From: Candidatus Ventrousia excrementavium
GTDB lineage: Bacteria; Bacillota; Clostridia; Oscillospirales; Butyricicoccaceae
Reading direction: 5' to 3'
Assembly (NCBI GenBank): GCA_018714845.1
Contig: DVMR01000033.1
Coordinates: 62,001 to 126,000, forward strand
DNA: 64,000 nt
Every line of letters begins with the position of its first letter. Position 1 is the first letter of the stretch. The translations under genes and the position numbers were made by a program. Below the pieces are notes generated by a model that was given only the letters and a program-made list of their open reading frames with translations, ran no database searches and was not told the DNA's origin. Below, in pieces: positions 51,646 to 54,061 of this stretch.

Positions 51646-51674
51646 TTGATAACTTTTGACAGTTTTGGTATAAT
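51646..51674 (+). promoter_or_regulatory. Promoter of the methyltransferase-nuclease pair
   Basis: TTGATA (51646-51651), 17 nt, TATAAT (51669-51674); leader ~45 nt with GGGGGG before the ATG. The 258-nt spacer to zapA otherwise shows only AT-rich sequence. Confidence 0.75.
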
Positions 51675-51726: not shown

Positions 51727-52848
51727 ATGATATATCAAAGCGTGACCTCGCCTGCCGAAAGGGACTATCTGACAGCGCAGCTGATTACTTATCTGGGCAA
51801 CAAGCGCGCGCTGCTTGACTTTATCGGCTCGGCTGTTGAGCTGGTGAAGACCGAGCTCGGACAGGATAAGCTGTCAATCGGCGATTTCTTTTCCGGCTCG
51901 GGCGTTGTTGCCCGTTACTTCAAGCACTGTGCCAGCCGCTTGGTCGTCAACGACCTTGAGCGCTATTGCGAAGTGCTGAATCAGTGCTATCTTTCCAACC
52001 GGTCGCAGCTGGACCTTGACCGTCTGCACAGCATCCATGACGGGCTGTGCAGCAGGCTGGATGGCGAGCTCGACGAAGACGGCATCATTGCCCGCATTTA
52101 CGCCCCGCGCGACGAGAACAACATCCGGCCCGGGGAACGCGTTTTCTACACCCCGCGCAACGCGCGGTTTATCGACACCGCACGCCGGCTGATCGGCGAG
52201 CTGCCGCCCGAAGAGCAGCCGTATTTTCTCGCCCCGCTTCTGTCAGAGGCGTCCATCAAAAGCAATACCGCAGGCGTGTTCAAGGGGTTTTACAAGGACG
52301 CGCGCACCGGCATCGGCCAGTTCGGAGGCACGGCGCGCAATGCGCTGTCGCGCATCTGCTGCGAAATCACCCTTCCCTTCCCTGTTTTCAGCAGCTATGA
52401 GTGCCCGGTCGATATTCTCCGGGGCGATGCGCTCGACGCGGCCCGGCAGCTTGAGATGCTTGACCTTGTTTATCTGGACCCGCCGTACAACCAGCATCCC
52501 TATGGCTCCAATTACTTTATGCTCAACCTCATCTGCGATTACTGTGAGCCTGAGGAAATCAGCGCCGTAGCCGGCATCCCCCGCGAGTGGAACCGTTCCC
52601 GCTACAACCGCGTGGGCATTGCCTTTGAAACGCTGGCTGAGCTGTGCGCTGCCGTCAGAGCCAAATATCTGCTGGTCTCTTTTAACTCTGAGGGCTTCGT
52701 CACCCGGGGCGAAATGACGCATATGCTTTCCCACCTGGGAAAAGTGCAGGTGCTTGAAACACCGTACAATGCCTTCCGCGGTTCACGCAACCTGCAAAAT
52801 CGTGATTTGCATACAACAGAATACCTCTTTCTCGTGCGTAAAGCCTGA
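51727..52848 (+). CDS. D12-class adenine-specific DNA methyltransferase
   Basis: 373 residues. Motif X 'YLGNKRALLDFI' (22-33), AdoMet motif I 'DFFSGSGVVARYFK' (53-66, FSGSG) and catalytic motif IV DPPY (251-254) in 'YLDPPYNQHPYGSNYFM' give the order X-I-IV of alpha-group N6-adenine methylases. It should methylate adenine in a specific sequence that cannot be predicted here. The variable target-recognition region is ~100-220. The gene has its own promoter and precedes an HNH nuclease gene by 49 nt, which suggests a restriction-modification pair. Confidence 0.9.
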   Translation: MIYQSVTSPAERDYLTAQLITYLGNKRALLDFIGSAVELVKTELGQDKLSIGDFFSGSGVVARYFKHCASRLVVNDLERYCEVLNQCYLSNRSQLDLDRLHSIHDGLCSRLDGELDEDGIIARIYAPRDENNIRPGERVFYTPRNARFIDTARRLIGELPPEEQPYFLAPLLSEASIKSNTAGVFKGFYKDARTGIGQFGGTARNALSRICCEITLPFPVFSSYECPVDILRGDALDAARQLEMLDLVYLDPPYNQHPYGSNYFMLNLICDYCEPEEISAVAGIPREWNRSRYNRVGIAFETLAELCAAVRAKYLLVSFNSEGFVTRGEMTHMLSHLGKVQVLETPYNAFRGSRNLQNRDLHTTEYLFLVRKA

Positions 52849-52897
52849 GCGGGGCTTTTGCCGCTTGATCCATTCGCTGTAGAAAAGGAGTAGGATT

Positions 52898-53944
52898 ATG
52901 ACAAATGTTACCAAAATTATCGAAGTCATCAATGCCAATGGCCGTCAGGGCCCCAAGGACCTGAAAAGCCGCGAGGTCTACAACTGGGTCAAGCGCGACC
53001 TTGACATCAGCTATGAAGATTATCTGTCTGTGTTGCAGGCCAACGCCATCCCGGCAGATGAGCGAATGCGCTTCCGCAATGCGTATTTCATTGTGTCGTC
53101 AAGCGGTGTGTACTCCTTTTTTAAGTCGAGCGAAGAGGAGCTGCGGCCCTACATCTGCTACATCATTTACAAGACCCCGTACTTAAGAAGCTCAGAAATC
53201 AAGGACAGGATGAAAGAAATCTACCCTCACTTCACCCTGATCGACCAGATGCTGCAGCAGAATCTGACGGCCCCCCAGTGCGTCGTCGACCAGACCATCC
53301 GCAATGTACTGGTTTCAAACTACGAGCGTCAGGCCAACCGCGAGCTGTTCGAGCGTTCGCCCGTACGGCCGTACATTTACACCATCAAGCCGGCGGGCGC
53401 TGAGCTGGCACTGCAGGTCGAGCGTGCGCTTGTGAGCGGCACGGTGAGCATACCGGCACCTGTGCGCAACTGGGTGCACGACCAGGGCCCCGCACTGATT
53501 ATTGCCGAGCCCTATTCGGACGAAGAGCTGGCCCAGCTCCGCGAGCGCAGCAGCAGCTTTCGCTACAAAGCGCCGGAAGCCGGCCTGGCCGAACACCGCG
53601 AGCGCGACAACCGTCTGAAGGCGACCCGGCTGCGTCAGGCCGACTACCGCTGCTCGATTGACGAAAGCCACCGCAGCTTTGCAGCGCCCAACATGCCCAA
53701 CTTTGTAGAGTGCCACCACATCGTACCACTGGCTGCTCAGCGCGAGGTGCCGGATATCAATCTCGACTGCCTGGAAAACCTGGCCCCCATGTGCCCGGTC
53801 TGCCATTCGGCCATTCACTGCGGCACTGATGAGGTGCGCCGCGACATGTTCGAGCGCCTGCTCGTCCGTTATGAAAATAGCCTGCAATCCATCGGGATTT
53901 CGGCCGAGCAGGCCCGTGAATTATTTGAAAAATACAACATGTAA
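52898..53944 (+). CDS. HNH endonuclease, probable restriction partner of the methyltransferase
   Basis: 348 residues. The C-terminal nuclease (~250-310) has Cys252, 'FVECHHIVPL' (His273/274), Asn294 in 'CLENLAPMCPVCHSAIH' and the zinc cysteines 299 and 302, a complete HNH/beta-beta-alpha-metal site. The N-terminal ~200 residues contain two helical segments that look like winged-helix DNA-binding modules (~1-75 and ~80-160). ATG has AAAGGAG upstream. Together with the methyltransferase it would form a type II R-M system; no vsr, C-protein or mobility gene is visible. I know no characterised enzyme with this layout. Confidence 0.8.
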   Translation: MTNVTKIIEVINANGRQGPKDLKSREVYNWVKRDLDISYEDYLSVLQANAIPADERMRFRNAYFIVSSSGVYSFFKSSEEELRPYICYIIYKTPYLRSSEIKDRMKEIYPHFTLIDQMLQQNLTAPQCVVDQTIRNVLVSNYERQANRELFERSPVRPYIYTIKPAGAELALQVERALVSGTVSIPAPVRNWVHDQGPALIIAEPYSDEELAQLRERSSSFRYKAPEAGLAEHRERDNRLKATRLRQADYRCSIDESHRSFAAPNMPNFVECHHIVPLAAQREVPDINLDCLENLAPMCPVCHSAIHCGTDEVRRDMFERLLVRYENSLQSIGISAEQARELFEKYNM

Positions 53945-53969
53945 TTTAAGCAAAATAAATTCCTTTTTG

Positions 53970-53997
53970 TTTTGGGCAGCGTTTGCGCTGCCCAAAA
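53970..53997 (+). terminator. Terminator after the HNH gene
   Basis: A 12-bp perfect stem (53970-53981 with 53986-53997), 4-nt loop, then TGTCTTTT. Confidence 0.85.
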
Positions 53998-54061
53998 TGT
54001 CTTTTAAAGTGGTTTGTGATATTGTCTAAAATCGCCCGGCAGATTTAATGCTTTATTGCCA

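Follow-up and report, generated by a model that had tools for sequence, protein, structure and literature searches.

Our analysis supports a model in which two adjacent genes in the 64,000-nucleotide stretch of DNA examined here (the window) form a type II restriction-modification system, a reading that we regard as very probable. The preliminary description had proposed a self-contained system of this kind, and the proposal is supported by two observations: full-length relatives of the HNH protein lie beside a methyltransferase gene in eight of eight genomes, and relatives of its nuclease module stand behind C5- and N6-methyltransferase genes. The model predicts the activities of both enzymes, a target that they share and a role in defence. 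One transcript would give rise to a D12-class methyltransferase and a separate nuclease. The methyltransferase would mark the host's DNA with N6-methyladenine at a short palindromic site. The nuclease would find this site through two N-terminal winged helices, and its C-terminal EcoKMcrA-like HNH domain would cut it where the mark is missing, as on DNA that enters with a phage or plasmid. The HNH enzyme would take the place of an EcoRI-like enzyme beside a methyltransferase clade that is otherwise solitary or paired with EcoRI-family nucleases.

The gene pair and its constant adjacency

Both open reading frames are intact and lie where they were first described, with the methyltransferase running from an ATG at 51727 to a stop at 52848 and the HNH protein, separated from it by an intergenic gap of 49 nt, from an ATG at 52898 to a stop at 53944. 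The features of the pair are as follows.

51646..51674, + strand: promoter-like site, matching the consensus at 11 of 12 positions: TTGATA-17-TATAAT, the -10 preceded by TG (pattern only)
51727..52848, + strand: D12-class N6-adenine DNA methyltransferase, 373 aa (PF02086, E = 2.9e-16; PADLOC MTase_II, E = 6.5e-109)
51889-51903, + strand: methyltransferase motif I, FSGSG, residues 55-59 (sequence)
52477-52488, + strand: methyltransferase motif IV, DPPY, residues 251-254 (sequence)
52885..52890, + strand: AAGGAG ribosome-binding site of the HNH gene (sequence)
52898..53944, + strand: putative tandem winged-helix HNH protein, 348 aa, predicted restriction endonuclease (Pfam, AlphaFold2 model, structural matches)
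53968..53999, + strand: terminator-like hairpin with a 14 bp stem, then TCTTTT (pattern only)

The claim that the pair has its own promoter and terminator agrees with the promoter-like site and terminator-like hairpin that flank it, both at the level of pattern. The base composition was said to be like that of the surroundings, and it is: GC content is 57% in both genes and 59% in the window, and GC3 resembles that of the neighbours. The pair also lies between housekeeping operons, as had been proposed, and its place differs among sister species. In the window's genome and one other (G251), zapA and a U32 peptidase gene lie upstream of the pair and a hydrolase gene downstream, and in the remaining two genomes of the genus (G294 and G295) a fumarase gene lies upstream, the two fumarases being 80% identical. 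This difference in location suggests that the methyltransferase and HNH genes travel, or stay kept, as a unit. All four genomes of the genus carry the genes side by side, although a contig break divides the methyltransferase of the fourth genome between two contigs. In this respect the pair is less sporadic than typical restriction-modification systems, a point that counts against the model. The nucleases of the other three genomes are 90, 76 and 71% identical to the window protein, and the two complete methyltransferase copies 90 and 76%. Within the genus, dN/dS for the pair is 0.05–0.24, which shows that both genes are maintained.

The adjacency of the two genes extends beyond the genus. A full-length HNH relative lies directly downstream of a methyltransferase of the same kind in every genome found to bear one, namely the four of this genus and four Bacilli metagenome-assembled genomes, in which the relatives are about 40–45% identical to those of the genus (39–41% by tblastn). 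No full-length copy without a methyltransferase was seen among these eight genomes. The gap between the two genes ranges from -8 to +65 nt across the eight. It measures 45–65 nt within the genus; two of the Bacilli pairs are 11 nt apart, and the remaining two overlap by a few bases. These sizes would fit an operon with coupled translation. Three of the Bacilli loci (L061, L087 and L092) came from a scan of 85,000 species genomes seeded with a methyltransferase alignment, which biases three of the eight pairs toward adjacency, but this is offset by the five that came from HNH-seeded searches. One of the latter, around a Bacilli locus, yielded L305, in which the relative is directly downstream of a 60% identical methyltransferase. 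Outside the genus, HMM searches covering the order (295 genomes), the class (391) and the phylum (398) recovered no full-length relative, and only the C-terminal HNH module recurs there. Searches for the HNH protein gave no relative in viral contigs and phage records, and HNH domain matches only in plasmids.

The methyltransferase clade, its partners and the predicted target

The HNH nuclease is an uncommon companion of a mostly solitary methyltransferase; neither this solitary habit nor the more usual nuclease partner, an EcoRI-like enzyme, had been recognised in the preliminary description. Of 87 genomes in the family to which the window belongs, 22 carry a relative of the methyltransferase, and outside the genus nearly all of these relatives are 52–60% identical. 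The neighbouring genes, named by reading the neighbour proteins, are mostly prmC, polA-rimI-tsaD, fumC and similar. Among 80 genome loci of the clade, an EcoRI-family gene accompanies the methyltransferase at seven, an HNH gene at five and neither at 68. Of these 68, 47 are flanked by 1.2 kb or more of sequence in each direction; no restriction enzyme is among the listed family matches of their same-strand neighbours, which are mostly housekeeping genes. Spirochaetes have clade members 53–62% identical to the window protein. In the Brucepastera family, 79 of 100 genomes carry one, and in three spirochaete genomes the clade member is the only D12 gene. When viral contigs are included, an EcoRI-like gene lies near a clade methyltransferase at 27 of 126 loci and, in nearly every case, directly next to it. 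EcoRI-family partners also occur on a Paracoccus plasmid and in two genomes from the same family as the window; among the EcoRI-family partners, two had their PF02963 match confirmed. The clade is thus seen to exchange partners.

A tree of 54 methyltransferases puts the HNH-partnered ones in two well-supported places. Those of the window's genus are placed next to solitary methyltransferases of the family that contains the genus, and those of the Bacilli next to EcoRI-partnered enzymes and one solitary clostridial enzyme. A single clade for all HNH-partnered methyltransferases was rejected (AU p = 0.0021). Thus, the HNH enzyme either joined the clade twice or changed partner, although the strong difference in base composition between the groups calls for some caution. 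The HNH nuclease was apparently added to this mostly solitary methyltransferase at least twice. Exchange with EcoRI-family partners, taken together with two separate associations, points toward both enzymes of the pair reading the same target.

Published methylomes offer a guide to what that target may be. A solitary methyltransferase family, the most represented new one reported by Blow et al., makes RAm6ATTY in all six Spirochaetaceae sequenced (PMC4752239). The same modification was already known from Campylobacter jejuni (PMC4752239), where the enzyme is M.CjeNI, encoded by Cj0208 (PMC3526280, PMC4889913), and the counterpart of M.CjeNI in another strain is annotated D12 (PMC4294202). The window's clade is probably the same family as the solitary spirochaete enzymes, and this probable kinship predicts an N-AATT-N target, that is, RAATTY or GAATTC; the EcoRI-family partners likewise suggest an AATT core for the clade. 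We therefore consider an AATT core fairly likely, with RAATTY or GAATTC as the most likely targets. Our confidence stays at this level because RAATTY is avoided in two of three HNH-bearing genomes and not in this one: its observed/expected ratio, which varies with Markov order, is 0.74–0.76 in the first two, 0.98 in this genome and 0.99–1.11 in two controls.

It is less likely, though well short of negligible, that the pair is a restriction-modification system with a target lacking the AATT core, such as GATC, a variant that is compatible with the core of our model. Avoidance counts for GAATTC, RAATTY, CAATTG and GATC disagree between genomes, and in this genome both GATC and CAATTG are more depleted than RAATTY. 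GATC is strongly depleted here (0.39) and in a pair-bearing Bacilli genome (0.40), but it reaches 0.77 in the third pair-bearing genome, near the control value of 0.82, and both the EcoRI-family partners of the clade and the spirochaete RAATTY reports (PMC4752239) favour AATT. As a separate observation, the 694 kb sampled from the window's genome (window included) contain CAATTG 3 times against 63 expected, with GATC at 0.39 of expectation, and CAATTG occurs 3 times against 29 expected in a genome with only a remote methyltransferase relative found (G070).

A relative in A. baumannii was also considered. Its gene, located between ribD and riboflavin synthase genes, encodes a protein with 30.7% identity that may be AamA. 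Both GAATTC and an RAATTY-containing motif have been reported for AamA (PMC10483419), whereas subsequent work detected no m6A at GAATTC (PMC10287943). Given that later result and the tentative link to AamA, the relative was set aside as evidence on the target.

The HNH protein and its nuclease module

The HNH protein matches HNH models only, with a Pfam HNH E-value of 1.6e-4, just over the gathering score, and no known non-restriction family matches it. Its N-terminal part, to about residue 185, matches no model in Pfam, NCBIfam, PHROG or PADLOC, and PF02963, the EcoRI-family nuclease model, gives no match in the window protein. The following domains and residues were placed.

52898..53122, + strand: predicted first winged helix, residues 1-75 (order of helices and strands as modelled by AlphaFold2)
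53117..53470, + strand: predicted second winged helix, residues 74-191 (VIA-align: MarR, PadR and forkhead winged helices, Z about 7 to 7.7)
53576..53887, + strand: HNH nuclease domain, residues 227-330 (Z 10.1 to EcoKMcrA, 8.0 to ScoMcrA; profile match to 6ghc, E = 4.2e-6)
53714..53818, + strand: HNH active site, comprising H273-H274 (53714-53719), N294 (53777-53779), H303 (53804-53806) and H307 (53816-53818)

The complete HNH site first noted in this 348-residue protein is present, with H273, H274, N294, H303 and H307 all intact; the roles of these residues would be those of their counterparts in the HNH family. Also intact are C252, H258, C299 and C302, which probably form a zinc site. Across 24 aligned relatives, the invariant residues are C252, H258, F261, E271, H273, H274, D290, N294, C299, C302 and H303. 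In two otherwise conserved relatives (L061:1678-2757 and L305:1501-2574), H307 is replaced by T, with ITYG in place of IHxG. The match of the HNH domain to EcoKMcrA (Z 10.1) extends over 95 residues at 25% identity.

An AlphaFold2 model built from the 24-sequence alignment has a mean pLDDT of 78.9, compared with 41.6 from four close sequences, and a pTM of only 0.47, so that the placement of the domains relative to one another is unreliable. The earlier suggestion that the N-terminal half consists of two winged helices fared differently in its two parts. The second (residues 74–191) is supported by structural matches to many winged-helix proteins at Z about 7–7.7, which is middling by the tool's own marking, and the first (residues 1–75), modelled as three helices with short strands in winged-helix order, is plausible on that basis. 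The structural matches of the N-terminal half are to winged helices, with none to the McrA N-terminal domain that reads modified DNA. A Foldseek search of the model in a viral library returned nothing significant.

The main rival to our model holds that the HNH protein cuts DNA in a methylation-dependent, type IV-like manner. Known 6mA-dependent enzymes have the architecture of a winged helix joined to HNH (PMC11037411), and the closest HNH domains of solved structure, those of EcoKMcrA and ScoMcrA, belong to type IV enzymes. We nonetheless find this very unlikely. An intact adenine methyltransferase adjoins the gene in all eight genomes, and cutting the mark that it makes would kill the cell, although this conflict arises only if the nuclease reads that same site. 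The enzymes of that study seldom have a methyltransferase neighbour, and such neighbours act on other sites; its winged helix–HNH enzymes are 224–283 aa long with one winged helix (PMC11037411). A sensor of some other mark would not explain why the protein joined the same methyltransferase clade in two lineages.

The HNH module itself occurs in a wider range of contexts. At four loci (L053, L190, L308 and L310), module relatives of 408–470 aa with unrelated N-termini directly follow a C5-methyltransferase gene (PF00145 was confirmed for two of the four), and these are apparently further type II restriction-modification pairs with HNH nucleases. At L313:1-1908, the gene directly after an N6-methyltransferase with a specificity domain encodes a 281-aa Mrr_N-HNH protein. 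The module thus follows varied methyltransferases with varied N-termini, and we conclude that this nuclease part is reused by restriction-modification and related systems. At three loci in Bacilli metagenome-assembled genomes (L307:378-1721, - strand; L306:617-1995; L189:1480-2888), the module directly adjoins or is fused to a NUDIX (MutT-like) domain, the fusion being the 448-aa protein of L307. The N-termini of these proteins appear PUA/EVE-like, and they are possibly damage- or modification-directed nucleases.

Slightly less probable still than a type IV nuclease is a solitary epigenetic methyltransferase beside an HNH gene that is inactive or serves recombination, repair or homing: the 68 of 80 relative loci without a recognisable nuclease neighbour (47 of them with 1.2 kb or more of flanking sequence each way) and their largely housekeeping surroundings would fit it, but constant adjacency with operon-like spacing across two bacterial classes, an intact active site under the low dN/dS given above and the similar HNH modules in other restriction-modification contexts argue against it.

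Implications and comparison with known systems

Under the restriction-modification model, the pair provides a concrete case of a solitary, probably regulatory methyltransferase gaining a nuclease, and the place next to one methyltransferase clade appears to be taken by HNH and PD-(D/E)XK enzymes alike. Together, these features make the order of events in the assembly of restriction-modification systems testable. Another prediction of the model is that an EcoRI/ApoI-like site is read by a non-homologous enzyme. In its fullest form, it holds that a restriction-enzyme family absent from Pfam, NCBIfam and PADLOC armed a usually solitary RAATTY-type methyltransferase in two classes, whether independently or by partner change, and that the nuclease is an isoschizomer of EcoRI/ApoI-type enzymes with an unrelated fold; we judge the chances of this fuller claim to be evenly balanced.

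Several known systems resemble the pair in part. The solitary RAm6ATTY methyltransferases of the Spirochaetaceae (PMC4752239) and M.CjeNI/Cj0208 (PMC3526280, PMC4294202) are D12 adenine methyltransferases like that of the window, which differs in having a nuclease partner. In the EcoRI-family pair on Paracoccus marcusii pCP157_17, the methyltransferase is 47.7% identical to the window's and the nuclease gene is directly adjacent, but that nuclease belongs to PF02963, with the EcoRI fold, whereas the window's is an HNH protein. EcoKMcrA and ScoMcrA share a similar HNH domain, although they need modified DNA and their N-terminal parts are not recognised in the window protein. Finally, the 6mA-dependent winged-helix fusion nucleases of type IV systems join a winged helix to a nuclease domain, as the window protein is predicted to do, but their winged helix–HNH members have one winged helix and lack a cognate methyltransferase, whereas the window protein has two predicted winged helices and a constant methyltransferase neighbour. 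In our view, what is new here is a probable type II restriction-modification nuclease that joins an McrA-type HNH domain with two predicted winged helices and occupies the slot that an EcoRI-like enzyme has in relatives.
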